From positions 2,542,001-2,606,000 of the forward strand of contig OZ038452.1 in the NCBI GenBank assembly GCA_964036195.1: a stretch of 64,000 nucleotides of DNA, written 5' to 3'. Numbering within the stretch: the first letter of the stretch is position 1; each line of letters begins with the position of its first letter. The position numbers and the translations under genes are program-made. Shown here piece by piece: positions 536 to 60,500 of this stretch. The stretch is from Sphaerolaimus hirsutus. Its lineage: Eukaryota; Nematoda; Chromadorea; Monhysterida; Sphaerolaimidae. The notes under the pieces are model-generated. The model had not been told where the DNA came from. It made no database searches and saw only the letters and a program-made list of their open reading frames with translations.

Positions 536-879
536 TAGCATGAAAGTCATTCAAAAAATTTTGAAAACTGATCCTATGGATTTGAAAATCCAAAATCCAG
601 TTGAAAAAAGTGAAGATTGTTAAAACAATTGAAAACTCCAGTAAATCGAAAATATTCAGGTTGAAAAACTATCCTCAAAAAGTTAGATCTAGATAACTCA
701 GTATTCAGAAAAAAAACCCTGAAAAATGGCACACATCATTAAAAAAACACAGAAAAAATGTCAAAACTTTCCCATCATCACGCCATCCGATAAAATGGGA
801 TAAAATCACATTTCGCCTCAGGGCGGCGGCTGCAGTCGCCGCATGCGTGCATTACGGAATGAGAGTCGACAGCCGGTGC

Positions 880-1194
880 CGGTCCCACAGAGCCTGTAAA
901 TTGTCCATGTAAAATGTAAAATGACATGTAAAATACCCTGTAAAATGCCAAATGTCAGGCAAAGTGTCAAAAGTCATGTAAAATGTCCTGGAAAATCACG
1001 AATGTACGGTTGCCAATTCACATGGCATTCTACACAATTTTCGCACTTCGTGTGACATTTTACACGGTCTTTCACACTAACGAAATTTGCCGCATATTTT
1101 GCACTCGCATATTTCCCGGGGCTTTTTACATGACATTTACTATTTTGCGTGATATTTTGCATTTTACAGGGTCTTTTACAGGGCCTGGGACTGG
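880..1194. mobile_element. TGTAAAATG-family MITE
   Basis: Inverted ends of the type GGTCCCACAGAGCCTGTAAA and its complement (ending CAGGGCCTGGGACT). The interior is made of repeated TGTAAAATG/TGTCA words and mirror-image TTTTACATGACA words. The same design occurs near 11.5, 20.5, 33.9 and 60.0 kb. No clear target duplication is visible for this copy. ORFs on both strands here are by-products of the palindrome. Confidence 0.65.
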
Positions 1195-2421
1195 CCCCCG
1201 ACCACAACTTGTGTTTACGTTTCTCCGATGGGGCGAACTCGCGTGCGCATTGTTTTGTCGCCGCTGTCATTTTATTACTAGCCGCTGTAAGCTGGATGTA
1301 CGCTATGCGACATGAGATCTGGCGGGTTGAGGATTTTTTTAGTTGACCGAGCGCAGTTCACAGGGGAAATTTCGGAAACTGATAAATCTGCTCTGGGTGC
1401 ATTTGAGTTCACCGTAATGAACTGCCAGTGATGGCCTTTCGCGTCAGAATTTCCAACATCCTCTGCACTTTGCTATGCATTTATTATTTTGCCAGCTCAC
1501 TCAGATCTGGGATGGGAGCATTTCGAGGGCAGAGTTGATTATAATCGGGTGTGCTGAATTAGAGGAAGTACACTATGTAGATTTATTTTTGTGTAATAAA
1601 AACTTTAATGTGTAAGATTTTATTATCATTGCATAACATTCTTCAGGTGTTTTTCACTCACTGTATTTATTTGTTGCAAATTTGCAGATGAGCACTATTC
1701 GCTTGCATTTCATTCGTTTTGTATTTGCGATGAATGCATAGCAACAGTTTTTCAAATTCTAGTCGAGAACAAAATCTCCATAAAAAACTCCGCTGACAGA
1801 AATCTATGTCGCCAAGATCATTGATGTAATTATTTCACCCCAAACGACTAGGTACGTCAATAATATTTTATAATGATTCAATATAGATAAAAAATAGAAC
1901 GAAAATATCGTTAGAATATGCACGAAAACGACGTTTGCCATATCTCCAGCTATGTAATTAAGTAACTGCCTTCTAGAGCTCATTTTGTCGTTATTAAATA
2001 AAGTATGTAGCCACAACGTAGCAGTTCACGTATACAAACTAGTTCACGGCTGATATTTCAGAAACTGGCAATTCCGCTTCGAAAATATATTTAAGTTTAT
2101 CGGAATAAGGACTACTGTTGTCGGAAGTCTAACAGGATTCATTCTGGTAAATAAATTCCGACCGCAAAGTACTGTGTAGAGCCACATCACCGAATTTTGT
2201 TTCGTTATTGCATTACTTGGGTATGTAATATCACTACTTTTCTCATATCGTATATTTACTGGCATCGAACAACATCGAAACATAACGTTTTTACCATATT
2301 TTTCGGAAGAAATTCACGTTCACGTTCACGAAATTCACCACTTTACCCATAATCGGAACAATCAATATGGTGTGCGAAAAATTTATCGGTTTTTCTATTC
2401 GGATCAGATACGGTAGACATC
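1195..2421. other. no gene recognised
   Basis: AT-rich sequence. A decayed copy of the fold-back MITE core is visible at about 1360-1440 (GGAAATTTCGGAAACTGATAAATC, then TGAGTTCACCGTAATGA). I see no coding exon with good splice signals. Confidence 0.4.
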
Positions 2422-3934: not shown

Positions 3935-4276
3935 TTTTGCCATTTTGCAGGGCATTTTACACGACTTTTGACACTTTGCATTACATTTTACATTTCACAA
4001 GCTATTTTACATGGTCTGGGAGTGGCACCTCACCGATTGTGCCTACACACACTAGTTTTCACCGTGACTTCGTGTGAAAACTGGAATTTTTTCAAATGCG
4101 AATTAATGAACACGGTTGAATGATTTATTGAAATTAAATTTGAATATAAATTAATGGAAGTGTAAATTTGAAAACTAAAACACATATAGCATACGATAAG
4201 AGTAGGCTGAATGTCGCCATGTGGCCATTTCAGTTTTCACACATGCCACGGTGAAAACTAGTGTGTAGGGCCAATA
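3935..4276. mobile_element. half TGTAAAATG MITE followed by a fold-back CACACTAG MITE
   Basis: 3935-4020 is the right half of a TGTAAAATG-family element (TTTTGCAGGGCATTTTACACG ... ATGGTCTGGGAGT). 4037-4276 is a palindromic element with ends GCCTACACACACTAGTTTTC and its complement. A near-identical sibling lies at 13869-14108. Both share the interior ACATATAGCATAC.AAGAGTAGG. Confidence 0.7.
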
Positions 4277-4582: not shown

Positions 4583-7500
4583 AAGATTTTTTTTTATTTT
4601 ATATTTTTTTTCTGGGTTTTTTTCCATACCGAAACCTGCGAATATGCGATTTTTGAAAAAAAATACAGTGGATTGGATCAACTTCATGTGGGAAAATAAA
4701 TTATCTATCACACGTTTTTGTGTCCATTTTATAACTGTCAGTTGAAATATGACTGACAATAGATCCATAAAACTCACAATATCAATCCTGAGTAAGCCCA
4801 AATGTATATTAAACAGTAGAAAAATGTGCAGCAATGCAAGTAGAGTAAACCCTAGCTGCCAAGATTATTTAAGGTTTGCTGAGAATTTATCAAGTTTACC
4901 CAGCATTGAAATTCTTAGTTAAAAGTCTTCTTATAACAGCTTATGAATCATGTACAAGACTAATGGCAATTCATAAAACAATTGCATAGCATTGTTTTCC
5001 TTGAGACTCACAAAATAATGAAACATTTTGGAGTGCACTACCCCATTACTATGATAGGCCATATGAAACCAAATTTCTTAGAACTAACCTAATTGCTGGA
5101 TGAGTGGAAAACACTTGCTTCTGGAAGTTTTTGTCAATAATCTTTTAATGTTTGATGCATCAATGTTAAACGTATTTAGTTTTATGTGTAAGCTGTCTCA
5201 AGTGTCTTGTCCAAGGGCATGTCACCAAGTATCCAGCATGAAACATTTCTTTGTTGATTTTGTTTTTGCTAATAATTTGTGAACTTTTTATCTGATTGGT
5301 AAATCTTATAATGTATAAAAATAAAAATATTTTTATCCAATTATTTGTTTAATTTATGGCAACACTGTGAGTCTCAATTTTCTAGGTCTGGGATTGGGGT
5401 GGGGGCAATCTCGTTCCATGGTTCATTGCATTTAGTTCAGCTGATATGGATATCTTTTTAGGCAGATGCACAACTTTGAATACTCACAAGAATTTTGGAA
5501 GGTGGCTTTTCTGTCTATTTGTTTATTGCACATATGTAGTTAGGTGTTTATGTTTAGATTATCATATCCATCTAATATATTTTATGAATCTACACAATTA
5601 TGACAATGTATTAATTCATAGGAAGAAAAGAATAGTAATTTCAAAGTTTTAAAAGTTTTTTTTTCCAGTAGGTAAAGAATAAGAAAATCGATCTATACAT
5701 TTGTATTTTCAAAGATACAGCTATGAAAGTTGATGGAATCCTTTTGGGTGTTTGTGAAGATTTTCTTGAGTATTGAAGTGTCTCAGTTGGAGAGGTGCTT
5801 GCTACTGAAGAATGTTTTGTCATTGGAAGTTCTATTTTTGCATACACAAAATCATCATGATAACACAATCATTAACAGATTGAAAAGTGTTCAATCATTG
5901 GCTGGAAAGAGCATTCAAATTTTGATCAATTTTCCATAAAACATTCTTCAATATTATCTCAAAATATCACAATCTTTATCCACTTCAAAACTTATTTCAT
6001 TTATGCAATAAATATTGTGTCAGAAAAAGACCAAAGCACAATATGTGCAAACTAGATTTTACCCCTTCCCTACATCAAAATGTAACTTAGATAACTCAAA
6101 AACACAATTTTGTAGGCTCTTAAGGTATGAAGTAAATAGGTATCTGCAGTAAACACAAGATATTCCAAACACAATTAGGTTGCATCAGCATTCTATATTG
6201 AGTCGAGTTTAGTGAAACTCCCTAATTGACCAGCTAATCAGCATGCAACACATGCTTGTAATGCTGCCCTGCCCACTTTTCCCCAGTATTCTAAGTGTGC
6301 ATCTACATACATTTTTTTCTGTTTTCTCATGAATTATTTCATCATATTTAAACATATCTCTGTCATGTGGAAGCTATGAAGGAAGATGGTTAAATGTGTA
6401 TGTATGTGGTTCTGTCGTTTTGAAATTGACCTGCTTCTCAATTAATTACATCCAGAACCAGATGTTTTTATGTATTTTTTGTAAAAACATCTGATTTGAT
6501 TATATTGTATATAAATATATATATATATATATATCCACATGTCATTGGCAGAAGTAAGTCAATATGCCAGCATATAAACTACCATTTAGGCATTTGTATA
6601 GTCTTCTCACTAACATATAAAGCATACTAAGTAAATAATTACATGTATAAATACATGCACACGTTGACACACACACTTCTAGATCTCAAGCAGTGAATGA
6701 GGTTTTAAAGAGCAGTGTCTATGGATGGAATGTTTTCATAGTTATGCTGTACTGGTGGCAGTCTAACCCTGTATAATATCATGTAAAATCAGAAATGTCT
6801 AATGTCATATTGCTAGTAATGTTTGTTTTTTATATGAGATTTCACTGAGTATGGCATGGCTAGTGATGGAAGGGCACTGATCACTGATGTGGCATGATGC
6901 CCTTGTGATTTTCAGAGGTGATATCTGGCACCAATTCCTTTTTCACAATTTCTTAGAACCAGTGTCTGGCTGGTGCAATTCCATATTTCCAGTGACTTTA
7001 GCATTACCAGGTGCTGATCACACCACTGTTCCCTGAAGAACACAGGAATTCACCAAACTACACCATTGCTTTAATTTTGGCGGTTATTGCAGTGACATTT
7101 TGACAGTGGGGGCCATCATATTTATTTGATGAATCCTTGCATTTTTGGTAGAGAATGTTAGAGGAAACAAAAATTTTACTTAGGTATGAGGTCATTATCA
7201 GTCCAAAAATTTTCAAGTATAGATTGGCATCAGCTCTAGTATCAGCCTTCAGACACTCTAATATGTTTACATATCCCATGGATTGTTTTGTTTCATCGGA
7301 ACTTTTTTAATTTCATTATGCCCTAAATTAAATACACCCATTATTGATGACAATTATTCAAGCTAATATTTTCGACAAATGTATTGTAGAACCATACACT
7401 TTCATCAAGTTTGGCTAACAGTGGGAGCACTTCTTAAATTATTACATTTGTATTTTATTTTATGCTTTCCTTGATATTTTTGAAATACCTTACATACCTT

Positions 7501-8276
7501 TTATACATTTTAGTATAAATACAAATAATTATGAAAATGTATTTAGGTATGTTTATGTTACTACCAAAAATACCAGTATTTTAACAACTCTGGTATGCAA
7601 TACATTTCTACACATCAGGAAATACAAGTTAGAAGTAGCGAACACAAGTTACATACATAATGCTACTATTTAAACAGAAATGCACAAACTAAAATCACAA
7701 AAAATATGAAAGTTACATTTCATTACAAATTACACTACAAACAACTTAGTTTTTACACTAAAAATACCACAAAACCAATAAAAACAACCAATGGTAACTT
7801 GCATGTGAAATTTCACACAAAATATTTGCAAAATCCCTAGTGCATAAGTACTAAAATTTTTGGCTGTCATTAAAAAAAAGTTTTGATTTGAATTTTTGAA
7901 CAATGTTTTATTACAAAAACAAACTTTTGAAAAAACACCTTCCCTACTTGGGATGAAATGTGAGGGAAAGATGCTGCTGTGCATTTCAGTTTCTTAAAAA
8001 ATTAAAGTGCACTGGCACTTGCCTTGCATGTAGTTAAACTTATATAGCTGAACTAAGCAGTTGTAGCTGGACTGCTGGACATATTCATGCACGTGCATTC
8101 ATTATTCTGGTCCGAGTACTCTGCATGTGCATTATATCACTTTGCATTGGAGGACTGCGTCATTTCTTCAGGAGTCACCTTGGTGCCTGGTGCCAATGTT
8201 TAGGATGGAGATATGGCCCATTGTGTCATTTTTCAGATAAATACATTTGTGTTGTATTTATGTGAGTGAACATGCC
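4583..8276. other. MITE-poor AT-rich block, no gene recognised
   Basis: About 3.7 kb without the C/G runs and MITE termini that fill the rest of the window. It contains a (TA)n microsatellite at about 6511-6534. It could be an intron or an untranslated region of a gene whose exons lie elsewhere. No exon with family motifs is seen. Confidence 0.4.
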
Positions 8277-8555
8277 TAGCATTGAAAAAATCCCTGGGTA
8301 ATTTTTTGGAATAACAGAAAATATAAAAATGATACTTTTTATATTTTACATTCTAGTAATTTCCAGAGATATTTAATTGCCCATATTTTTGACAAATTTT
8401 CTGATATTTTTCAAAGTGTGAGAAAATTCAAACGCTATCTGATTGACATTTGTTTATATTTCTTCTGGCTTTTCTTAAGAAATATTTTATTTTGAGAGTT
8501 TTTCTGAGATTTTATTAAATTATATTTCCTAAAAATCACCCATTTTCCAATGCTA
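8277..8555. mobile_element. TAGCATTG-family (hAT-8) MITE
   Basis: Ends TAGCATTGAAAAAAT and ATTTTCCAATGCTA, matching the full copy at 11676-12776. The flanking octamers AACATGCC and ACCATGCG agree at 6 of 8 positions, consistent with an aged 8-bp target duplication. Confidence 0.65.
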
Positions 8556-11082: not shown

Positions 11083-11467
11083 TACGAAAAGGGTGCACGC
11101 ACTGTGCACGTTGTTTTGGACACGATTACTAAGTGGATTAGTACTTCATCGACTTTTATGTAAAATTGTATGCTTGAACTAAAGTTGGTTCAAGTATTGG
11201 TTATTCTGTATATTGAAAAAGTCCAACCAAATGCGCATCCTTTATGTGTATTTTACCACTTCAAACGCATCATGAAATGTTGGCACTGAGCCAAAACATG
11301 TACGTGGATTGTTCTCTAAAAAAGAATGGACTGAACAAAATCAACCGTGAACCAAATGGACTCAGTCCATTCAAATTCAAATTGAAGACATGAGTAATCA
11401 TACCAAGTACCTATCTGTTGTCTTTAGCGAGAAGGGCGCATAAATTGCATAAAATGTCTCAGGAAGC

Positions 11468-11609
11468 AGTCCCACACCCTGTAATTATAATTAATAGTTA
11501 AAAAGCTTTATTACTGCACTTTTGACATTTGGGATGACATTTTACAAATTTGTATGACATTTTACATGTCATTTTACATTCTACTTTACACTTTAAAGGG
11601 TGCGGGACT
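11468..11609. mobile_element. short TGTAAAATG-family MITE
   Basis: Inverted ends AGTCCCACACCCTGTAA and TTTAAAGGGTGCGGGACT around TTTTACA/TGACATTT words. No target duplication could be read. Confidence 0.6.
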
Positions 11610-11675
11610 GACAAGTGGGCTGCATTAATCACACGGCACCCACGCATGTCATCGCCATAGTTCCTGATCTCTTAT

Positions 11676-14961: not shown

Positions 14962-16133
14962 CAGGGTTGGTTTTATAAAAATTCATTTTAGTAAAATTGT
15001 ATAAAAATTTTATTTTATTTTTATTTTATTCTTCTTTCATTTTATTTTATTCCCAAAAGTCGTTAATAAAATAAAATGACCCATTTTACAAAAATTTTAC
15101 ATTTATTTTACAAAAATTTTACAAAAAATCAGAATCATGCATGCAAGGCCAGAAAAACTTCATCATTAGACATTATACATGAAATCTTGTGACAAATTTT
15201 TGACATTTTTGTGACATACTTTTGTGACAAATTTTTGTGACATACTTTACAAAAGTTGCATGCAGTAGGTATTGTTAGCTAGCAGCAAGTGTAAACTTAC
15301 AATTATTGATAACAATGGTTTGCATTTTTTAAAGGACTGCTGGTGCCAGTTCCGCAAACTGAGAAGTGAGAAGTGAAATAACAAAGGCGAAGTAAGAGAG
15401 CAAAGGCGAAGTCAGAAAGGCTGAAGGCGGCGGCTTGGCCTTTGCGCTTTTACTTTGTCTTTGCCATTTCACTTCTCACTTCTCATTTTCTGGCTCTGGC
15501 CCCTGGACTGTGCTGGGCACATTTGTAAAATGTCATTATAAGTGTCAATTGTCATGACAAATGTAAAGTAGTGTCAATTGTCATGCAAATGTCAAGTGTC
15601 ATGTCAAATGTCATGGAAAATGTAAATTGTATCACCAAATCTTATGTTTTTGTATCTAAATCTTATGTTTATGTATCCACATTTGGATACAGAATGTAAG
15701 ATTTTGATACAAAACATAAGATCTGGATACAATACAGAAGATTTGGATAAAAGAGAAGATTTGGATATAAAACATAAGATTTGGATACAATTTGCTTGAC
15801 AATTGGCACTTTAATTTATATTTGTCATGACAATTGACACTTTACTAGTTATTTTCCATGACAATTGACACTTTGCATGGCATTTTACATAACATTTGAG
15901 ACTTTACAAAGCTTGGGTTCCACGAATAAACACGTAGAAACTCAAGCATCAAGAAAAATATTTTACAAAAAATATGAATTTTTATACACTTTTACAAAAT
16001 TTTTACAAAAATTTGAATTTTTATACAATTTTTATTTTTATTTTGAAATTTTCCATTTTATTTTATTTTATTCTTAAATTTTCCATTTTATTTTTATTTT
16101 ATTTTTATTTTTTATGCGATTTTGCCAACCCTG
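14962..16133. mobile_element. hAT-10: 1.17-kb CAGGGTTGG element with 8-bp TSD
   Basis: Ends CAGGGTTGGTTTTATAAAAAT and GATTTTGCCAACCCTG. The duplication CTTATGAC is perfect (14954-14961 and 16134-16141). Sub-terminal TTTTATTTTATTTT and TACAAAAATTTTACA blocks occur at both ends. The interior holds a fold-back around 15349-15500 (GAGAAGTGAGAAGTGAAAT and its complement) and tandem GATTTGGATAC words. No transposase was recognised. Confidence 0.85.
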
Positions 16134-20200: not shown

Positions 20201-23200
20201 GAAGGTAGGTTCAGGTTTATATACCTTAATGATCGTTGAAAGTGGAATTTAACGTAGGCAGGTTGAACTGAACTGCAGTATTAGTTTGAGTTTACAGATA
20301 CGTTGGTTTCACTGAGGGATAATTAGTCAGAAATTTTTTTATCATACCATTTTACTGATCAAACTCCTGGAAAAATTGGGAAAATTCTGTGTAAATAATG
20401 CTGTCTTCCCAGGTATATCATGTGGCTGTCCCACACCGTGCAAAGCGTAAGATAATGAAGGTGTCAAATGACATGTAAAATGTCATACAAACTTGCCAAA
20501 TGTCATGTCAAAATAAAAAGTAATAAAATATTTTTTGAATTTTAAATTTGAATTGACGTTTTACATGAGATTATGCCGCACTTTACACAGAGTGTGCGGG
20601 ACTTCCCCCATATTTATTATTACAGGTAAATTGTTCAATTTTTCTCCAACTCTAAATGCCAGGTTCTATAAAGGTTTATAAGGTTCAAATGGAAGCCTGG
20701 CATCAAATAGGCCACAAATATATATAAAAACGACATCGATTCTGTCGCACATTCTAAATGCAAACATAAAAATGGCAAAGTGCCCAATGAACACGGCTGG
20801 AGCAGAAATCGGCGAGTGCACGTCGCTGGTGCACCTGGACGTGCAGCACAACGAGCTGGCCGCCCTGCCCGACACCATCGGCACACTGGGCAGGCTCGCG
20901 CGCCTCGGACTGCGCTACAACAAACTCAAACAGGTGCTTGCGGGGAAAATATGTAACGAGTGTGATGGTCTTATTGGCGCTGCACACACTAGTATGCAAG
21001 GACGTATCCAGGGGGGGGGCTGCAGCCCCCCCCGTTCCCGGGGTGAGACCAAAAAAATCGTGGGAAATACGACTTCTCCTATACATTTTTCACGTTTTGT
21101 GCAAAAATTTTGCGCGGAAGCGCGCATTCACCCCCGCAAATGTATATTTATCAGTGGATCGGTCCCCTTAGGCACAAATCCCTAAAATTTCTGTCAGAAA
21201 TGTGTCCGTCGGCGTATATGTACGTATATTTACATACATATACAGTGGTTTCAGGCACTGGCGCCAGCGCCAATGACGCCATGGCGTGGCGCCTACGAAT
21301 GGCGCCAGCGCCATGGCGCTATTTCGTCACTATATGGGCAAAAATTTTAGGGGGGGGGGGCTGAGCCCCCCCCCCCCGCTCGCCGGGCTCTGTAAACAAG
21401 CAGCCCCCCCCGCTCAAAAATCCTGGATACGTCCCTGCTAGTATGCTAACAGAAGTAAACTCATTTTGGGTGCTCATAAACCTGCTTTGAACGCATTTGA
21501 GTGTACCAAAATGAGGTATCTGTAAACTACAGTTGACGAGGATCTAAAAAAACGTATTCTGGTAAACTCAAATACGTTCAAAGCTGATTTATGGACACCC
21601 AAAATGAGTTTACTTGTGTTAGTAAACTACCTAGTGTGTGCAGCCACTTTGGAAAACGTAAACATAAATGTGAGTATAAATACCCGGAACACCCAGGTAT
21701 TCTGGGTAAATGTAAAAGCGTTTTCGCAACTTTGGGAGTAAACTAGTGGGGCGCAGTGGCATGCAATATGGCAGGAAACTTAAACATATCAGCTAAAACA
21801 GCATTAGATTAGAAATAATAAACCCAACCTACTGCCCCTCATATTCCCAGGTGCCAGACTCATTGGCGCAGTGCCAACTTCTTGAAGAATTTGTGGCAGA
21901 GGGAAATGCTCTGTGTCAGCTGCCCGACAGATTGCTTGCCGGGTTAAACAGGGCAACAAATGTGAACTTGAGTAGAAATTTGTTCAATGCATTTCCACAG
22001 GGTGGACCTAGCCAGTTCTCTAATGTAACAGTCAGTTGTTGTTTTTGGGAGTTTCTTTAGCTGAAAATGGGTGGCTGAAAGCCAAAACAGCACATGAACT
22101 ACCAATTTTGGAGGTGAAAATTAGTTTAAAAGTACAGTGATTTTCAGTGAAACTTTTGGCTAAATTTCTCAAAAATAACTAGAGATAGATAGAAAGCTGT
22201 TGATTTCTTTTTTGGGGGGGAGTGGGGACTACCCCATTGGGAAAAATTAGTATTTATAATTATCATATTTTCACTTTTTTATGTAAAACTTAAAAATGCA
22301 GAGCATCAACATGGAACATAACCAGATCTCAAAAATACCATTTGGCATATTTGCATGTGCCAAATGTTTGTCCAAGTTAAATTTGAAGTCCAATGAAATC
22401 AGTGGATTACCACTAGGTGAGTATGATTTTTTTCAAAAGAAAGAAACAATAAAAAATGAAAAATTTGTTCAGATATGGGAACATGGACCACACTAGTTGA
22501 ATTGAACATGAGCACAAATCAGATCAAATCTATACCAGATGACATAGAGAAACTGATTAACTTGGAAGTTTTAATAATGAGCAATAACTACTTGAAGGTA
22601 TTTCCATACAGTATTTATTTTTCTGTATTTTACTGTGCATGTGAAAACACAACATAGAACGTGTCAACTTGACCAAAAACCATATATATGTGCTGTACAG
22701 AAAATACCTCAATCCATTGGCAACTTGACAAAGTTAAAGGAGCTTGATTTGGAAGAAAATGAAATTGAGGTGCTGCCTGCTGAAATAGGAAACCTGTTGG
22801 AATTGAGAAAGTTGTGGTTACAATCAAATAAACTGACTAGCATACCAAAAGCCATTGGGTAAGCTGATGTTTTAGTGGTTTTAAATTTTTTATGAAATGC
22901 ACAAGAAAATATATAAAAAAATTAGAAAAACAACCTTGAATTTTCCTTGAATTTTTTGCCATTAAAAATTCAACCCATGTAAAATACATGTCACAACAGG
23001 GATAGTTCCTTTCCAAACATTGGAAATCAATTTCTATACTCTTTCAGCTCACTGGAACAACTACAAGAGATGCGAATTGGTGAAAACAACATCAACAATT
23101 TGCCACAAGAAATAGGTGAATTTCTTAAGCTGTTCCTTCCTGACTTCTTAATGTAATATCGCCAAATAGTTTCCCCAAAGAAAAATTTCCACACATCATC

Positions 23201-28100: not shown

Positions 28101-31100
28101 CTAGTTGAATCCTAAATACGTCAAAAATAAATGTATAACATAGGTAAATAACTAAAAAAATAATTGAAAGTACAGCGTACATATTTAGCTGATCAATTAT
28201 AGCTGATTGATTAGATGATTAATTATGGATCCTGTTTGGATGCACAAATTAGAAGTGTGTATTATGTTTCATGTCTACTTTCTGGATGACGGAAAGTAAA
28301 ATATTTATTTTTGAAGAATTTTTCATCACAATTCTCATAAAAAATTTCAGGTGAAAATCTCTGATTTCGGGCTCAGCCGCGCGCTGGGAAGTACGGAAGA
28401 TTATTATCGAGGCAATTTCACTGCATCACTGAAATTGCCGATTGCCTGGTGAGTTTTAATAGATTTTTTTGCAATTGCGATATTTTGATGTCGAAATTTA
28501 AAAATGTTTATTTGAATAAAATCGTTTTGTATACCCCGATAATATTTTGAAAAATTATTGTTATTATTATTATTACTTGAACCTTAATCGGTGCGACACT
28601 AACGAAATCGTATCCTAATGTAGTAATTGATCAAGTATCGGGAATGATACACATCGATCTTGAAAAAAAAACTTTTTTTAAAATATATTTAATAGTCATA
28701 TCATCGTTCAAAGGCTGCCCATTCTAAATATCTATTTTTAGATAAATTTAAAATCCACTTATTTATTCCATTGACCATACGTTTAATAACGAAACTCCAA
28801 CACATTATTAAAAAAATCATTGAAAAACGTCCGAAAAACCCAACCTAGGTGCGCCCCGGAATGCATCACGCATCTACGTTTCACCAGCGCCAGTGACGTT
28901 TGGTCGTTTGGCGTTACGTTGTGGGAAATGTTTACGTACGGTTTTCAACCTTGGGCCGGCCGCAGCGGCGGGGAAATTCTCGCCGCTGTCGATAAACCCA
29001 AAAGCGATCGATTGAGTCGACCGGACGCGTGTCCGACTGAACATTACGATTTAATGTTGAAATGTTGGCAACATGACGCTGGAAAGAGACCCAATTTTGA
29101 GAGGCTGTGCGGGATTTTAGGGGAGGTTCGCGCTTGTTTATGTTTTTCTTCTTGTTGTTGAAGTAGTTTTTAACATGTGACTAAGGCAGGGGGCGGGTCT
29201 GTTTTACTATTTATCTATAATTATAAGGTGTCTTGTGAATTTTTTTGCATTCAAGTACGAATGTTTATTACGTTACAATATACATGAAAAATACACGACT
29301 CAATTGTTCTATCTTTAATATATCCATGTAGCGTATTGAATGTCAATATTAGCTTTTCTAAATTTTCAATTTAAATTTTAATTAAACTTTCAATATCGCA
29401 CTTAGGGTTGGCCGATGTTTTTTTTTAAACGTTTTTTATTAAAAAAAACGTTTTTTTTTAAAAAAAAACATGACGTCCGAAATGTTTTTTTTTTAAAAAA
29501 AACATCGGCCGAAATTTTTAGTACTAAGCACTAGGTATTTTGCAAAATTTTTGCGCGCAAGCGCGCAATTTCACACACAAATTGACATTGGTGGTTGTTT
29601 TCATTGGTTTTGTGGCATTTTTAGTATCAAAGTATCCATTTCTATGTGCTACCATGGGTTAATAAGCCGTCATATGTTGCTGTAGTATATAATATTGAGG
29701 TAATGTGCTTCCATGTACCTCCACAGTGTGTAACTTCACTCTCAAAGTAACAACCTCCCTTTATAACCTTGTTTGATCACTATTCCGTGCCAAACTTTAC
29801 CTGAAGTCACGAACATTCGACTATAAGGCGATATACGAACGATATGTTGACAAAAAATGGATATTTTTGACACAAATCACCACTTATAATGCTATCCCAT
29901 GGCTCCACAGACATTATATGGTCATATATAACATCACAGAGTATTGCCACTGTCTGATATACCTATATATGTTGACACAAGGTCACATCTGGGAGCTTTT
30001 AAAAAAAAACGTTTTTTATTAAAAAAAAACGTTTTTTTTTTAAAAAAAACGTTTTTTTTTTTAAAAAACGTTTTTTTTTTTTTAAAAACATCGAGTTAAA
30101 AAAAAACGTTTTTTTTCCAACCCTAATCGCACTCGCATATTCGATTCTCTACATATTCAAAATAAACTAATTTATGGCCAATTTTCAGATTATGCCCGAT
30201 CGAGTGAAAGCGGTGCTTGATTTTCACGATGGACAGCCAGATCACCTGCAGTATGCCAAATCGACAGTGATCACTGTTATTGATAAAACGTCTGTTGATT
30301 TTTTTCGCTGGTGTATATGTTTTAAGTCAAGTGGCAGATAAATGTATAAGTGACCGCGATTTTCTTTTCGAAATTTACCTGTCACTGACACTTATATGTT
30401 GATTTATCACTTGACACACCACTTGATTTCACTTAGCACTTTCCTTGTCACTAGCCGACATGGCCCAGATCCAAATAGCCCCCCCCCCACACAGTCCACC
30501 ACTATACCCCGATGGCTACTATTGGAAGGGCGTTCTATCATCTGGTCGCACGGGACTATTTCTCCCCGGCAACACCATAGCGCACATTGGCGCTGGTGCC
30601 AGTAGCGCCAAGGTCACCTTGGCGCCGGGGCCTGGCGCCAAGGGGCAGAATAGAGTGTCGCCAGTAAATGGCGCCGTTTCTGATGCTGGTTGGTTGACGG
30701 TTATTTTTGTGGACGGGTTTGTGTTTCTCTTAAGAATACATTATTAGTTGACATTTCGGTACTCGATTCTTATCATTTGACATTTGAAACGCTTCGAAAC
30801 TGATTCATTATTTATTGTAGATTGCACCTGCATGCGTAAGCTCAGATGTCCTGGGTGTTTCATGTGGGGCAGGCCTGATACGCACATCTGCCCGTTACGT
30901 ACATTTGCCCGTCTTTTTCACTTGACACTTTTTCAAGTGATTTTCAGATATGAGTAAAGTGAAAAAAGTTGCGCAATGACATTAGTTAACTTTTTTCACT
31001 TCACTCATATTTGAAAATCACTTTAAAGTGTCAAGTGAAAAAAACGGGCAGATGTGCGTATCAGTGCACCCCCGTTTCATGTCAACTGCAAATACTCGTT

Positions 31101-34100
31101 GTCCTCCTGGGGTGTGGGATGTCCACGGATGCTGGGTCAAATGAACACGTAGAAATTCAAACCGGGCTTGACCCGTTACAGATGCTTCGTGGAAGTCGCC
31201 GCTCAAGTTGTTCACAGGCGGGCTGCACATAACTTCGTCGGGTCGGGCAGAGGCGGCCAGCGCCAGCCCGCCCCAGTTGTCGCCCCCTATTGAAGTGCAG
31301 CAAATGTGCGTTTCGTGGTTGTTGACACTTGTTGGCAACTGAAGTTACTTGTCAACTGGTTTCAATGTCAATCTGTGATCCGCTCTGTGATCTGTGATCG
31401 CTCTGTGATCCGTTAAATCTGAATTAACATAAAACCAGTTGACATCAAATAGTGTATTCAGTGCCAATGTATTTTAGGTACCTAGTTGGGAAACGCCGGG
31501 TATTTGATGCCAGGCTTGAACTTCCAGTCGTGTTGCCCGATTTTTTACCTCAAGTCATAAATATGACAATTGAAAAAAGATTAAATACGTACCCGTGAAC
31601 AACTTACGCAAATACCCGCGCACTTGAATAATATAATCAAACTTCTCTAAATGTGGCACTTTATTTTGCAGTGGCCCAGTGCCTTTGAACGGCGCCGTGG
31701 TGCCGCACCAGCTGCTTTCAAGTTCCATGGGAAAATTAGATAGACGCAGCCGCACGCCGCAGAGTGCCGTGCCCACACGCAAACGTACGTTTGAACGTTT
31801 GAACGTTTTTTGGACGTTTTTTTGAGGTGGGGAGAAAATTGATACCATATCTCGTTGTCGATTTGAGTTTACCTAAGTAGAAATACTCCGACTACTGTTA
31901 TGGAGTAAAAATATAATTCATCACGGTAACTCAATTGTGTTCAAAACTTATTTCGGCCGTAAAATAGTGCGTGGCTACTCTAGTGCTACATTGAGGGGTT
32001 TTCCTAAAGTGTATTTTCACCACTAGTCCCTAAAATTAAAGTATCAAAATTTCATTTTCAAATCGTAATTTGACATCATTAGCCACAGGCCCTATTCAAA
32101 AATACACAAAATAAAAAGTGTAAAAATACTCAGCGATGCATCTTAACGTCACGCCGCCGCCGCGGCCAGAAAGACCGAAACAAATTCAATGCAGCCCCCG
32201 TGAAAACTTCGCCAATGGCAAGGCTCTGTGTGCAGAAATCGGCGAAAATTCGACAAACAGATTGTGCAGAAATTCGACAAACGGCAATGACAATGATTCT
32301 TTGAATGAAGATGTCTCCATTTCAATGGAGAATGAGAATGGGATTAGTGGACAAATTGGTTGGTGATTTTGAATAGTTTGTCCGAGTGTTTATGGAGTAG
32401 CGATTTCTAGGGTGACACGGTAGGGCTTTGCGGTTAACGGTACGGTAAATTTCTAACATTGCGGTTAACGGTACGGTACGCTAGATTTTTCAAAAATGCG
32501 GTACAGTACCGTAAATTCTGCCACCCTAGTGATTTCGCCTAGCTGTTTAGTAGCTGCTCAGGCCACTCAGGATCACTCAGAAATACATACCGTATTTCTT
32601 AGAATAAAAGAGCGCCGTTATAATATTTACCATCAAGTTTTTTTACCTGTCGTTCCATTTAAACCATAATCATCAATTCAAAAAACACACGAAACATTTA
32701 ATCACAGTGTCATATCCAATAATTTTGAGCGGGGGGGGGGGGGCTTCCATTTATACCGTAACAGAGTGCTTCATTGAATTTCTTTTTTAAATTCCTCAAT
32801 CATGCTTACAAATCCAAAAGGTTAAGCACACATGCTCAGACAATCCACCAGTTGGGAACCCCGCGCCCCAAAGCCGCCAATATTTCGAAGATGCCCTTCT
32901 GTCGTTGGAAGTTTGCCAACAATTCAATGCTGAAACTGAACGACTTATTACCGAGGTGGGGGTTTGCGAGGTGGACGACGACAAATCAGGCAATTTAGAA
33001 AATAGAAAGCGTGACGGAAAACTGAGGCCGGTGTCCAATGCGGACGCCAGGTTGCTGGCTGATTTGCGTGCCGAAGCTGAGCGCATGGCTGTCAAGGTTC
33101 GATTTCTGCCTGAGAGCTTGCATTTTTTTGCACTGCTTTAAAATTATTATGGATACTTGTTGAAAATGCCTGAAAATTTTACTGGCTGTTTGTACTTGAT
33201 TTCGTCAGAAGATAGTGTTGGTCACATATTTTTTAGTTATTTTTTACATATCTACAAATATAATAAATTTTCATTTAATTTACTTGTCATTATGTTACAT
33301 GCCAGGCGATTATAATAAATTTTGCGTGTATTTGTGCAGGGTTTGGCACAAGATCGCCGCTTCCCGCTACCTGATACAGATGCTGAGAACGATTATACCC
33401 AGAAAATGTACGAATTGAAACGGAGAATTCGGTGTGTCTTAAAATTTAGCAACATTGAAATTTGACTCAATGTAGCTGGATAGTGCGGAAAATATTGGTT
33501 TTTGTAACATTGTTGTGAACAATCAACACCTACATAGTTTCCCATTAGAAACTAATTATAAAACTACATTTGCAGTTTCACATTCCCCTCAACATTCATT
33601 CTCCGAAAACCTTAAAATCCCCACTCGCAGGGAGCTAACCGGCCGCTTAACACCTCCCACACCGCCAGACACCCCCAACGAAAACAATAACACACAAATC
33701 GCGAGTCAAAACGGTCAACAAAGCAAGCCTCCGAGACCGAACATGTTTACCTACGGCAAGCTCGGCAACGGCCGCACCGACACCGATGCCAATGAAAATC
33801 CCAGTGTACATGGTCATGGACAATGGACACCAGGTGCTACTCCCAGACCCTCTAAAATGTTGTGTCGTCGTGCAAAGTGTCAAAAGTCATGTAAAATGCC
33901 GTGGAAAACGGCTAACAGCGTTCGCAATTTTCCAAGCATTTTATATGACTTTTGACACTTTACATGACACTTTACAGGGCATTTTACAGGGTCTGGGAGT
34001 TCCCTTAGAAGCTGAAGATGCGTACAAACTGCTGGTGGAATGCGGAACTAGGTTGAGAGAAATGGATTTGGATCAGGGGGGTCAAATTCAACGTGATACC

Positions 34101-35960
34101 CCGGGGGTGCCAGAGAAGGCGGGAAAGGGGGTGCCGCCGAAGGTACCCCCAAAACCGAAAATGGATTCGCGGTTTGTGGTTTTGACTTTTTGTTGGTGTG
34201 TGAACATGTGTTGTCAGTTGTGAGTGGTGCCTAGGGTTGGAAAAAAAACTTTTTTTTAACTCGATGTTTTTTTTATAAAAAAACGTTGTTTTTTTAAAGC
34301 TCCCAGATATGACCTAGTGTCAACATATATAGGTATATCAGACACTGGCAATACTCTGTGAGGTTAAATATGACCATATAATGGCTGTGGAGCCATGGGA
34401 TAGCATTATAAGTGGTGATTTGTGTCAAAAATATCCATTTTTCGTCAACATATCGTTTGTATATCGCCTTATAGTCGAATGTTCGTGACTTCAGGTAAAG
34501 TTTGGCACGGAATGGTGATCAAACAAGGTTATAAAAGGAGATTGTTACTTTGGGAGTGAAGTTACACACTGTGGAGGTACATGGAAGCACATTACCTCAA
34601 TATTATATATTACAGCAACATATGTCGGCTTATTCACCCATGGTAGCACATAGAAATGGATGTTTTGATACTAAAAATGCAACAAAACCAATGAAAACAA
34701 CCACCAATGTCAATTTGTGTGTGAAATTGCACGCTTGCGCACAAAAATTTTGCAAAATACCTAGTGCTTAGTACTAAAAATTTCGGCCGATGTTTATTTA
34801 AAAAAAAAACATGACGTCCAAAATGTTTTTTTTATTTTAAAAAACGTTTAAAAAAAACATCGGCCAACCCTAGTGGTGCCTGGCGTCATTATATCAGTAC
34901 ACGGATAAAATGGTGCCCCCACAACCCCCCCACAACCCTCACTCCCAAAGTAACAACCTCATTTTATAACCTTGTTTCATCACTATTCCGTGCCAAACTT
35001 TACCTGAAGTCACGAACATTCGACTATAAGGCGATATACGAATGTTTCGACAAAAAAATAAATATATTTGACACAAATCACCACTTATAATGCTATCCCA
35101 TGGCTCAACGGCCATTATATGGTCATATATAACATCACAGAGTATTGCCACTGTCTGATATACCTATCTATGTTGACACAAGGTCATATCTAGGAGCTTT
35201 AAAAAAAACGTTTTTTATTTTTAAAAAAACATCGAGTTAAAAAAACCTTTTTTTCCAACCCTACCCCCAACCACATAAATATACCTATACCTTCCCACTT
35301 CCCCAGTCGACTAGCGGAACTGCGTCGCGGGGACGAACAGAGCTCCAGTGGCCCCGCCCACTCGCTGCCGGCAATGTCCTTCGAATCGTGCGACAAATAC
35401 GAACTGCTCAGTTTCGTGGTGCAGGCGCTTGAGAAGCGACAAATTGGGGCTGAATCTCTTTGTGGGGATCAGGCGCTCGGGTGTGTGGGGGTGTTTTTAA
35501 AGTGTTTTTGACCATTTGAAAAACAGTTTTTTTAAACAAGCGTCGAAAGCGTTTTGTAAAATACAGCAGTTGGAATCTTCAGGACTTTTTCACTAGGTAC
35601 TCGCAAATTTTCGCGCGATTTCACATGCGAATTAACGTTTGGGGTTGGTATCCTTCTGCCTTAATTGAAGAAATGTTATTTTAGCAGATTTTCATCTTTT
35701 TAATGTCTTCTTCACCCGCGAAAAAGCTTATACAGTGGACCAACCCCCCCTCGAACTCACCGCCAAGCCCTCTCAAAATTTTTTATTCACCTGTCCTTCC
35801 CTTTTTTTCTAACCCCTGCGACGATCAAAATCCTGGAGACCCCTGCCGCTGAGATTTTACTTTTTGTAACAGAATATGTTGAAATAACTCTCTTCATTTC
35901 AGCGGCGAGTTACATTCTGCGACCAGCGAAGCCGATATCGACTTGCCAGTGAGAATGTAG
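25124..35960 (+). CDS. TNK2: ACK/TNK2-like non-receptor tyrosine kinase
   Basis: Seventeen coding exons: 25124-25306, 25668-25913, 26949-27092, 27507-27698, 28351-28448, 28849-29125, 30189-30289, 30495-30688, 31182-31305, 31672-31784, 32134-32358, 32840-33096, 33340-33431, 33631-33833, 34009-34171, 35307-35480 and 35903-35960. All phases agree, and the 2844 nt encode 947 aa. The N-terminal SAM-like domain (LYDLLTSCDLCEYYAEL) is followed by a tyrosine kinase: GKGEFGSV loop from residue 121, VAVK lysine 147, HRDLAARN with Asp242, DFG 260-262, then CAPE and DVWSFGVTLWEMFTYG. Next is an SH3 (AVLDF about 388, YYWKG about 422-426) divided between exons 7 and 8, then a Pro-rich tail (TPPPRPERP, VPPKVPPKP). 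This order is typical of ACK, which works downstream of Cdc42 and EGFR at membranes. I see no intact CRIB motif after the SH3. Exon 9 (weak acceptor) is the least certain. Intron 14 is almost entirely one MITE. Confidence 0.93.
25953..26450. mobile_element. hAT-9: CAGGGGTCTCC element with 8-bp TSD, inserted in its own sibling
   Basis: 498 bp, ends CAGGGGTCTCCAGG and TAGGAGACCCCTG. The perfect duplication GTCTCCAT lies at 25945-25952 and 26451-26458, in ACK intron 2. The sequence to the right (26459 on: GATTTTGGCCCTCGCGGGGG) repeats the element's own 5' interior, and the sequence to the left (GGGGTCTCCAT) matches its own tip. The target was therefore another copy of the same family. The interior has GATAGATAGC repeats and G-runs, with no transposase. 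Confidence 0.88.
26459..26792. mobile_element. host copy of hAT-9 (3' part missing)
   Basis: Parallels 25967-26310 at an offset of about 463-493 bp, with shared CAAATCGCTCCTCCGGAGG, GGCACAATATATAGGC and AAACCACTCCAGATAG. It stops at a G-run before CTTTGTCTTTTAAC. Its 5' tip is the GGGGTCTCCAT at 25942-25952. Confidence 0.75.
27740..27990. mobile_element. decayed CACAC/TGTCAACTGG MITE in ACK intron 4
   Basis: Contains ACAAATGTCAACTGGTCCC with CAATTCAAAGCTTGC and, mirrored, GCAAGCTTTGAATTG and TTGACATTTGGTGCCG. The same words occur in the elements at 36767, 41773 and 60632. Confidence 0.55.
29403..30125. mobile_element. hAT-2: TAGGGTTGG element with 8-bp TSD
   Basis: 723 bp in ACK intron 6. 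Ends TAGGGTTGGCCGATG and TTTCCAACCCTA. Perfect duplication ATCGCACT (29395-29402, 30126-30133). Both ends carry long A/T tracts interrupted by AACGTT that can fold on each other. The interior (GTGATTTGTGTCAAAAATATCC in complement) is shared with the two copies in ACK intron 15. Confidence 0.88.
30865..31073. mobile_element. hAT-6: 209-bp TGATACGC MITE with 8-bp TSD
   Basis: Lies in ACK intron 8, just before exon 9. Ends GGGCAGGCCTGATACGCACA and GTGCGTATCAGTGCACCCCC. Perfect duplication GTTTCATG (30857-30864, 31074-31081). The interior is a near-perfect hairpin (TTTTTCACTTGACACTTTTT, GATTTTCAGATATGAGT). The sibling at 38553-38761 is also 209 bp. Confidence 0.88.
33839..34000. mobile_element. 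MITE that forms almost all of ACK intron 14
   Basis: A 162-bp TGTAAAATG-family element with ends ACTCCCAGACCC and GGGTCTGGGAGT. The intron it occupies runs 33834-34008 (175 nt), so only GTGCT at the donor side and TCCCTTAG at the acceptor side are not element sequence. Removing the intron joins ..GQWTP to EAEDAYKLL in frame (phase 1). Reading through it gives stop codons and a frame change. Alternative acceptors inside the element (TTTTACAG) lead to an early stop, which supports the junctions given. No target duplication is readable. Confidence 0.8.
34232..34872. mobile_element. hAT-2 element with 8-bp TSD, opposite orientation
   Basis: 641 bp in ACK intron 15. Ends TAGGGTTGGAAAAAAAAC and AACATCGGCCAACCCTA. 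Perfect duplication GTGGTGCC (34224-34231, 34873-34880). The interior is the complement of the 29403-30125 copy. Confidence 0.88.
34936..35263. mobile_element. hAT-2 element, left part missing
   Basis: Begins inside the family sequence (CACTCCCAAAGTAACAACC) and runs to TTTTTCCAACCCTA at 35263, only 44 bp before ACK exon 16. It is inverted relative to the neighbour at 34232, so the two can pair in the same pre-mRNA. Confidence 0.8.
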
Positions 35961-57546: not shown

Positions 57547-60500
57547 ATGGATTTACCTGCGTTATCCACAGCAGTTCATGAGGTCATCATTGATATGAGT
57601 GAGTTACTCCGACCATAGTGCGAATTGCATATTTTTGTTTTGTTTAAATATTTTCAAGTAAATATTATTAACTGATTGCACATAAGAAAGTAACATAAAT
57701 AGGTACATAAGAAATTAAAATCCTAGAATTAGTGCAAAATTGCACTGCCACATGCGGGTATTGGGCCCCCACACACTGGATGTCAACTGAATTCGTGTCA
57801 ACTAAATGTCAACTGAATTTAAGTGATACTGTGATTTCAACTTATCTATCTGATAGAGCATAGTTAATTTTACATCATGACACTTCATTTTCATTGTTCC
57901 TGTTAAGTGTGATGCTTTTTACAAACTTCTTGTTTTATTCAATTGACACTGAGTTGACGCGAATTTGCGATGTCAACTAGTGTGTGTGGGCCCATTGAAC
58001 CCGCGCCTCTCGTATAGAACACGAGCGCCCTAACCGTTGGACTACAATGGCGGCTAGCCTTTTCTCACTACTAGGGGCTTATATGTTGTTAAGGCATTCC
58101 TTTTTCAACTCGCAGACATGCCAGACGACTCTCGAAATTTAGACTTCCAAACGGCATTCATAACGCCCGGCCAATCAGTGGCGGCCAGGTGCATAATCCT
58201 GAACGAGCAGTTGGACAATTATGCGCCAAATCTGCACAAATGGAGTCACCCGGAAACTTCAAGTGCCATTGTGCAGGGTGGACAAAGTGGCCCACTTCGT
58301 AAAGTGCTCATTTTTGAGGAATTCAAGCCTGCTGATGCCCTGGAATATACTTGCAGCTATAAAAGGCGCCGGGCTAAACTTTTGTTGAATATGCATGCTG
58401 GTTGGTTTGGTAGTGGCAAAATTTTGATATTTTATATAGTGGCAGATGTTTTTAATCACCGGGGGTGGGGGCCCACAAGATTTTTGTGTTTCCTCGAATA
58501 ATCCTCCAGTGCCGATATGAGCGGGTCTATAAAGTGTGTTTATTGTCCATTCACCAGAGTTGCGAAAGCGTATTTACGCTTACCCGAAATACCCGGGTAA
58601 ATGGGTTTTACTTACGCTTACGCTTTCATAAAATACCTGTACGCTTTATTACGCTTTCCCGGCCGAAATACCCGGGTACGAAAAGCGTAAAAAAGTTTTT
58701 CACATAGTCCGGTTTTACACTTCATTTTACAAAATTTGGAAAGTGTATTTACGCTTACGCTTACGCTTTCCAAAAATACCGGTATTTTAACAACTCTGCC
58801 ATTCACTTGACTTCACTAATATTTTCCAACCGCAAATCATTGCAGACGAGGAATCACCAGCGGGGCACGTTCGATGCAATTTATCTAAGCACGGCGGCAT
58901 GAATCCCTGTCAGAATGGGGGCATCTGTTTTCAGAATAAATTGCATCCCGATTCTGGATGGTGCAAGTTGGTTTTTGGGGTTTTATTTGTGAGGAGAAAG
59001 GTTTTTTTGGGGAACTTACAGTTGGATATATCTAAGCGTGTATTGTTGTGTGTTTGTGCGTTGAGTTTGAGGTTTGATTTCTTTGAAAAATTGTGATTTA
59101 TGTCTACAGGGAAAGAAAACTTCCGACAGATAACGTTTTTTGGGAAGTTGCACGGAGTATGATCAATGTTACTTTTTCTTTTATCTGGATAAACTGGCCA
59201 TTGTATTTGGCTAGGTGTTTAGTTAAATCAGCTTCCAAGTTCCAACTTTATTAAAATTTTGCTATCACATTCTTGTTCATTTTTAAAAGTTTATAAATAC
59301 CTCTTCACGCTGATGATAAAATCATTTACATAATCACAATTGTATTCCCATTTTAAAATCACTGTAAACAGAGCTTTAAGGGGTGTCATTTCGTGATTCA
59401 GATGTGCACCAGGGCATTATGGCGCCAGCTGTGAACTGCTAATGCCGATGCCAGACACTAAACAAGTCACCACATTTAGTCCAGGTCTCATTGACATTAC
59501 ATTGACATTTTGTCCTACGTTTGCCCTACATTTTGCCCTACACACACACCAGTTTTCTACCGAAATAAAATAAAAATGGAAAACTGATAAATCGGCTTTG
59601 ACGGTATTTAAGTTAGCCAGAATGAGGTGTCCGTCAACTACTGTTTAATGACTCATTCCCGTCAACTCAAATGCATTCAAAGCTGGTGTATGAGTTTCCT
59701 CAAGTGTGTGTAGGCGCATTACTGCAAACCCAACTTCTCTTGGCTATCTGTACTTGGCGATAGACAACTGTAGCTTTTGAGCATATTGTAGTAGTTGACT
59801 GATTGAACTTATAGAAATTGGTGCCGGATTTAATGAACCCGACGCATGTTTTAGATATTTTTAAGCTTCTCATCAGGTGGCACTCCCTCCCAGAAACTGT
59901 AAAATGCACTGTAAAATGTTAAATGTCATGTAAAATGTCAAGGTCATGAAAGTAAAATATCATGAAAAATGTCAAATGTCCAGTTAAAAAATAAAAGTTT
60001 GACAATTTACCAGGTATTTTACCTGACTGTTGTCACTTTGCATGAAATTTGACATTTTAAATAGCAGTTTACAGGGTTGTGTGATTTTGTTGCCCAGGGT
60101 GGCACCTCTAGACATTGTAGAATGTTGTCGGGTTAATTAAATCCCGCCCCTGACCCCAAGCCAGCAGCCACAATCACAAATCCCCATCCCATGCTTGCTG
60201 TACAACATTTGACACACAATTCTTATAATAGAGTTCATTTTTAATAATTTTGCGGCAATGATTTACCTGCTGGAAGCATGCCAAAAGTCATTGTTTCATA
60301 GTATCTAAATAATGTAGATGTAGGTGTATCTTATATAAATGCCTTATGTTGCCATTTTTGAGCTTTACTTAAAACTCGATATTGTTTTGTGACCTTGTGT
60401 CATTGTAAACATTTAAAAATGGGCTCATGACTTAAAAATGAGTTAATGGCCGATATTTCACAAACTGATAAAACTAGCTTTGAACGCATTTCAACTTACA

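Follow-up and report, generated by a model that had tools for sequence, protein, structure and literature searches.

How new introns arise is a long-standing question, and introners, as described in the accessible part of Gozashti et al. (2022; PMC9860276), are transposable elements that become introns. The window analysed here (the whole stretch of 64,000 nucleotides) poses the question at positions 33834-34008, where a predicted intron of 175 nt in a kinase gene is occupied by an inverted-repeat element: did the element enter an intron that was already there, or did its insertion make the intron?

A predicted intron of the ACK gene ends where a MITE ends

The gene that holds 33834-34008 encodes SAM_TNK and tyrosine-kinase domains and its homologues are of the ACK type (activated Cdc42 kinase). 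Homologues were found for its N-terminal region; for the C-terminal region there was none among 8000 scored candidates. The pattern YPDGYYW...GLFLP is common to this protein and the nematode homologues P0002 and P0003, which would suit a nematode-like animal. The features of the locus, all on the + strand, are as follows.

33631..33833, +: 203-nt ACK exon preceding the intron; its final bases are the left target copy
33831..33833, +: left CAG of the duplicated target site, retained in the exon
33834..34008, +: predicted intron, 175 nt, GTGCTA...CCTTAG, placed by reading frame and conserved motif
33834..34005, +: hairpin-forming MITE of 172 nt, oriented with its GT end first
33834..33859, +: left element end, GTGCTACTCCCAGACCC..., source of the predicted donor
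33980..34005, +: right element end, ...GGGTCTGGGAGTTCCCT (in the family, GGGACTGCCCC)
34006..34008, +: right target copy, TAG (in the family, CAG), predicted acceptor
34009..34171, +: ACK exon downstream of the intron, 163 nt, EAEDAYKLLVE...

The upstream exon ends CAA TGG ACA CCA G at 33833 and the next starts AA GCT GAA GAT, with the dinucleotides GT at 33834-33835 and AG at 34007-34008; removal of the segment gives a junction codon G|AA (phase 1) and the product GQWTP-EAEDAYKLLVE, in agreement with the initial annotation, which had joined GQWTP to EAEDAYK in frame at these positions. The stops that it expected on reading through are present as two TGA codons in the upstream frame; the downstream frame has no stop throughout the segment. 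Among 15 homologues fetched out of 120 listed, the motif around the junction was present in 12 (in three the pattern was not evident), and the spliced product matches it without gaps, e.g. SAESEKAYKSMVEEG in Trichuris and LTEEAKAAYNSLVE in a damselfly (aligned by eye). Introns of this gene also contain, as seen by eye, inverted-repeat elements of about 1 kb with GGGTTGG/CCAACCC ends and A/T runs (window about 34232-35263, and another ending near 30124).

The element belongs to a family with a CWG target duplication

A search of the genome (348.5 Mb, 762 contigs) with the ACK intron gave 80 matches, most of them pairs in which one palindromic copy was hit on its two strands, from which 40 copies were scored out of 1687 first-look candidates; the remaining 39 copy places were fetched with their flanks. 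Alignment was restricted to the 34 of 40 copies with at most four mismatches at both ends and a clear orientation (L015, L029, L030, L036, L042 and L046 were excluded). These share the layout CWG-GTGCCAGTCCC...GGGACTGCCCC-CWG, with the consensus CAG|GTGCCAGTCCCAGACCCTG...CAGGGTCTGGGACTGCCCC|CAG. Both end profiles (38 copies per end) are conserved outward as far as the CWG triplet and are near-random beyond it, save for a pyrimidine preference just outside. The two ends are unlike one another, reading CWG-GTGCCA-STCCC on one side and CWG-GGGGCA-STCCC on the other. The same triplet stands on both sides in 26 of the 34 copies (16 CAG, 10 CTG), one has CTG/CAG, and seven differ otherwise, including ACK itself with CAG/TAG; where both sides are CWG the triplets match in 26 of 27 copies (P = 2e-7), and the matching triplets thus identify a 3-bp CWG target-site duplication. 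The family is short, has inverted ends and is present in many copies, as MITEs are, and it carries the marks of transposition seen in introners, terminal inverted repeats with a target duplication. A hAT element with an 8-bp duplication, guessed from the window copies alone, gave way when genomic copies had been aligned.

Set against this layout, the 175-nt ACK intron is a 172-nt element (GTGCTA...TTCCCT) plus the 3-nt right target copy, with zero leftover. The initial annotation had divided it into a 162-nt inverted repeat with 5 nt and 8 nt of flanking sequence. The repeat at 33839-34000 is real (outer arms of 21 nt, 95%; inner arms of 33 nt, 91%), but the flanking nucleotides are not host leftover: in the alignment GTGCT (5 nt) corresponds to the GTGCC end of the family and TCCCTTAG (8 nt) to GCCCC followed by CAG, i.e. 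to element ends and duplicated target. There is no older intron sequence left in the ACK intron. Its RNA is predicted to fold into a single long hairpin with the 5 nt and 8 nt unpaired at the base (-94.4 kcal/mol, z = -14.9; 0 of 200 shuffles equalled it). The ACK copy is 85% identical to the family consensus and among the least similar copies, and the insertion event is therefore not recent.

The further window copies proposed at 880, 11468, 20427 and 59884 were all recovered, in degraded form, by a profile search (E <= 1e-6), with one additional copy at 3936-4029:

873..1199, +: degraded family copies, three profile matches
3936..4029, -: half copy retaining the GT end
11461..11613, -: degraded copy
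20422..20609, +: degraded copy
59874..60077, +: degraded copy that retains the GT end (CAG|GTGGCA)

A profile scan of the window and 20 neighbourhoods of about 10 kb found 82 places, known copies included, and many family copies are located outside coding sequence. The element is present in both members of two duplicated segments, L011/L012 (C13:18140631, C13:18129605) and L010/L016 (C1), so these insertions are older than the duplications. A related subfamily has GGCAGTCCCAAG/CTTGGGACTGCCCC ends and CWG flanks (L062:3994-4191, L062:636-728, L069:7793-8005), and a related inverted-repeat element lies at window 15524-15917, its loop holding direct repeats of about TTGTATCTAAATCTTATGTTT. A viral contig with an 18-base match had no likeness beyond that match.

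The same layout interrupts other conserved genes

Other exons holding the family with GT and AG at its borders, which the initial annotation had proposed to look for, were found at two sites of a peroxidase gene and at one site of a cadherin gene. The coding sequence of the peroxidase gene (L068) is interrupted by two element copies, and both joined junctions align without gaps to solved ascorbate peroxidases (E = 3.4e-10 over query 22-82, junction after residue 70; E = 2.2e-11 over query 55-116, junction after residue 75); Pfam matched the second junction (6.8e-8) and not the first. In the cadherin gene (L047), which reads GCC GAC CAG|GTGCCC...GTGCCCCCAG|GAT TCG, the junction falls within a match to the cadherin domain of Pfam (E = 6.7e-4, below the curated cut-off) and within a match to CELSR1 (whole-sequence E = 1.4e-18). 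The joined flanks of the copy in a Patched-like sterol-sensing gene (L043) likewise match across the junction. Taken together, ACK, the two peroxidase sites, the cadherin and the Patched-like gene make five cases, selected from long joined frames rather than counted exhaustively; in all five the GT end leads on the coding strand, and in four the acceptor is AG. Sequence common to introns of different genes extends up to both splice sites in ACK, at two places in the peroxidase and in the cadherin, and the gapless protein alignments over the junctions, with the ACK motif, indicate coding sequence that was formerly continuous.

As joined frames, the fetched copies supplied 24 peptides from the GT strand and 16 from the opposite strand for a Pfam scan, with five more from neighbouring copies; the scan did not extend to L012 (a duplicate), to L010, L036 and L044 on the GT strand or to frames shorter than 90-95 residues. 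Matches with E < 0.001 reached across the junction in L047 and L043, both among the 24, and in the peroxidase copy L068:6601, and in 0 of the 16 opposite-strand peptides; opposite-strand L022 matches ECH_2 (E = 1.2e-5) with the junction outside the match. Weak matches in L025, L026 and L029 (E 0.006-0.05) were set aside. A second insertion in a cadherin, L052:6862 (E = 0.019; no Pfam match), and a second at the Patched locus, L070:7911 (no Pfam match), are only suggestive.

The peroxidase gene itself (L068, about 6500-8350) is of the ascorbate/cytochrome c peroxidase-like type and lies in an animal genome. Such genes are unusual for animals, and this one is possibly of foreign origin.

CAG-target copies lie in frame-consistent sequence

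Should copies in exons survive only where they can be spliced out, CAG copies would be expected in GT-strand coding sequence more often than CTG copies. For the 34 copies, with flanks of about 390 bp, the open frame spanning the exact join was set against the frames of joins displaced by one base or two. Copies were classed by the donor-side triplet, L012 (the duplicate of L011) was dropped and three AAG or CGG copies fell in neither class; the 30 copies that remained include the tandem pair L010/L016 and the paralogues L043/L044. For CAG-target copies the exact join was longer than the shifted joins by 13 codons on average (n = 17, one-sided Wilcoxon p = 0.0004), whereas for CTG-target copies the difference was -2.8 (n = 13, p = 0.63); the classes differed at p = 0.004. 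CAG-target copies are in frame-consistent sequence; CTG-target copies, as a group, are not. The CAG class tends towards the exact join on the opposite strand too, as judged by means alone (36.9 versus 30.8 and 32.4 for 18 copies), a pattern that shadow frames in GC-rich coding sequence would produce. Flank GC was 0.54 where copies end in AG (20 copies) and 0.48 in the remaining 14 (p = 0.054), the window standing at 0.38.

In the Patched-like copy L043 (= L070:4648-4842) and its paralogue L044 the element interrupts coding sequence, is flanked by CTG at either end and lacks an acceptor AG; this pair does not fit the scheme, and may represent GT-TG introns, if spliced, or impaired genes. In L068:6601, from the peroxidase gene, the donor-side triplet is CTG, as a conserved leucine codon requires, and the acceptor-side triplet is CAG; L052:6862 has CTG at the donor side and CCCCAG at the acceptor. 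These two cases, the second of weak homology as given above, look like selection for AG following insertion at a CTG target.

A model for the origin of the intron

The ACK intron is very probably an introner, a CWG-duplicating MITE that inserted at a CAG of a single ACK exon and is spliced as an intron, restoring the pre-insertion mRNA. An element of about 160-195 nt with a 3-bp CWG target duplication would have inserted at CAG within one former exon, so placing its GTGCCA end beside the left CAG as the donor CAG|GTGCCA and its opposite end (TGCCCC) against the right CAG as the acceptor TGCCCC-CAG|. The spliceosome would take out the element with the right target copy, leaving mRNA the same as before the insertion; the hairpin would bring both splice sites side by side, which might help splicing. 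The initial annotation had drawn both GT and AG from the target or nearby: this fits the AG, which belongs to the duplicated CAG, and not the GT, which belongs to the GTGCCA end of the element. Its proposal that the insertion itself created the intron gains support on two counts: the element and a single 3-bp target copy account for the intron completely, and other genes show this arrangement too, with gap-free homology over their junctions. Beside the boundaries, target duplication, recurrence and frame rescue that were observed, we infer that the RNA is spliced in this way and that the intron was born with the insertion.

An alternative is that the MITE entered an older, ordinary ACK intron, the rest of which was lost later. 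The many family copies outside coding sequence make insertion into introns possible, but such a history would have to leave both splice sites coincident with element ends to the nucleotide, and to have done so in the peroxidase gene (twice) and the cadherin gene as well; we consider it highly improbable. The ACK segment might otherwise be an unspliced, disabling insertion, or be spliced at other sites. In favour are a weak donor (GTGCTA, where GTRAGT is usual), a downstream frame free of stops across the element and further AGs in the right arm; against this, the two TGA codons block the upstream frame, exact removal restores a conserved motif, the ACK exons are open on either side and the layout is common to other conserved genes, so that we give this possibility, too, very little credence beside the origin of the intron by insertion.

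A wider reading of the family is offered more tentatively, with the balance slightly against it: a Harbinger/NuwaI-type MITE lineage may have evolved for splicing, with one end changed from GGGGCA to GTGCCA as a built-in donor, the CWG preference giving AG, introns seeded in many genes, CTG-target acceptors later changed to AG (L068:6601, L052:6862) and GT-TG perhaps tolerated (L043/L044). The GTGCCA end would then have been selected as a donor.

Relation to known systems

The comparisons that follow refer to the portions of the cited papers available to us. Among the introners of PMC9860276, a Chrysochromulina type carries the 5' splice site and a Symbiodinium type has terminal inverted repeats and a 4-bp duplication; of the animals and land plants in that survey, just two groups had introners, both of them animals. 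The present family resembles these introners in combining an element with a target duplication, one splice site being element-borne and the other coming from the target copy, and differs from them in its 3-bp CWG duplication, in inverted ends that differ at the donor and in its animal host. The NuwaI group of PHIS (Harbinger-related) transposons has a CWG target duplication and a terminal inverted repeat usually starting GGG (PMC4482050). The likeness to NuwaI consists of the CWG duplication and one GGG-starting end (GGGGCA), whereas the other end of the ACK-intron family starts GTG (GTGCCA); no mention of an intron role for the group was found in the available text of PMC4482050. In the copepod Eurytemora affinis there are recently gained introns with non-canonical GA/GG donors (PMC5714493), which are like the present case in being gained introns in an animal and unlike it in that the ACK intron is GT-AG. 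We read the family as an introner family, of a kind already known, that was probably built on a NuwaI/Harbinger-like MITE. No earlier description of this element family was found among the papers listed for introners, including those listed for Harbinger (one, on the evolution of introns in fungi) and copepod contexts.

For the origin of introns, the anatomy of the family states a whole mechanism, in which the acceptor would come from the target copy and the donor from the element end, with the message restored. The ends differ exactly where the donor arises, and CAG versus CTG targets provide a built-in control for splice competence, which would make selection on intron birth measurable in one genome.

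Mitochondrial contig

The mitochondrial contig (L050-L051) has 14,754 bases and 17% GC. Mitochondrial coding palindromes are reported for the hairworm phylum in the accessible part of PMC6649704; here there were none with perfect arms of at least 18 outside an AT run. Gene order, as read by eye, is nad2(-), nad1(-), cox1, atp6, cox3, cob, cox2, nad3, nad5, nad6, nad4L, nad4. The COX1 matches, in the top 120 listed out of 8000 scored, include unnamed sequences at 89% and 79%; named species are far off, at 64-67%.
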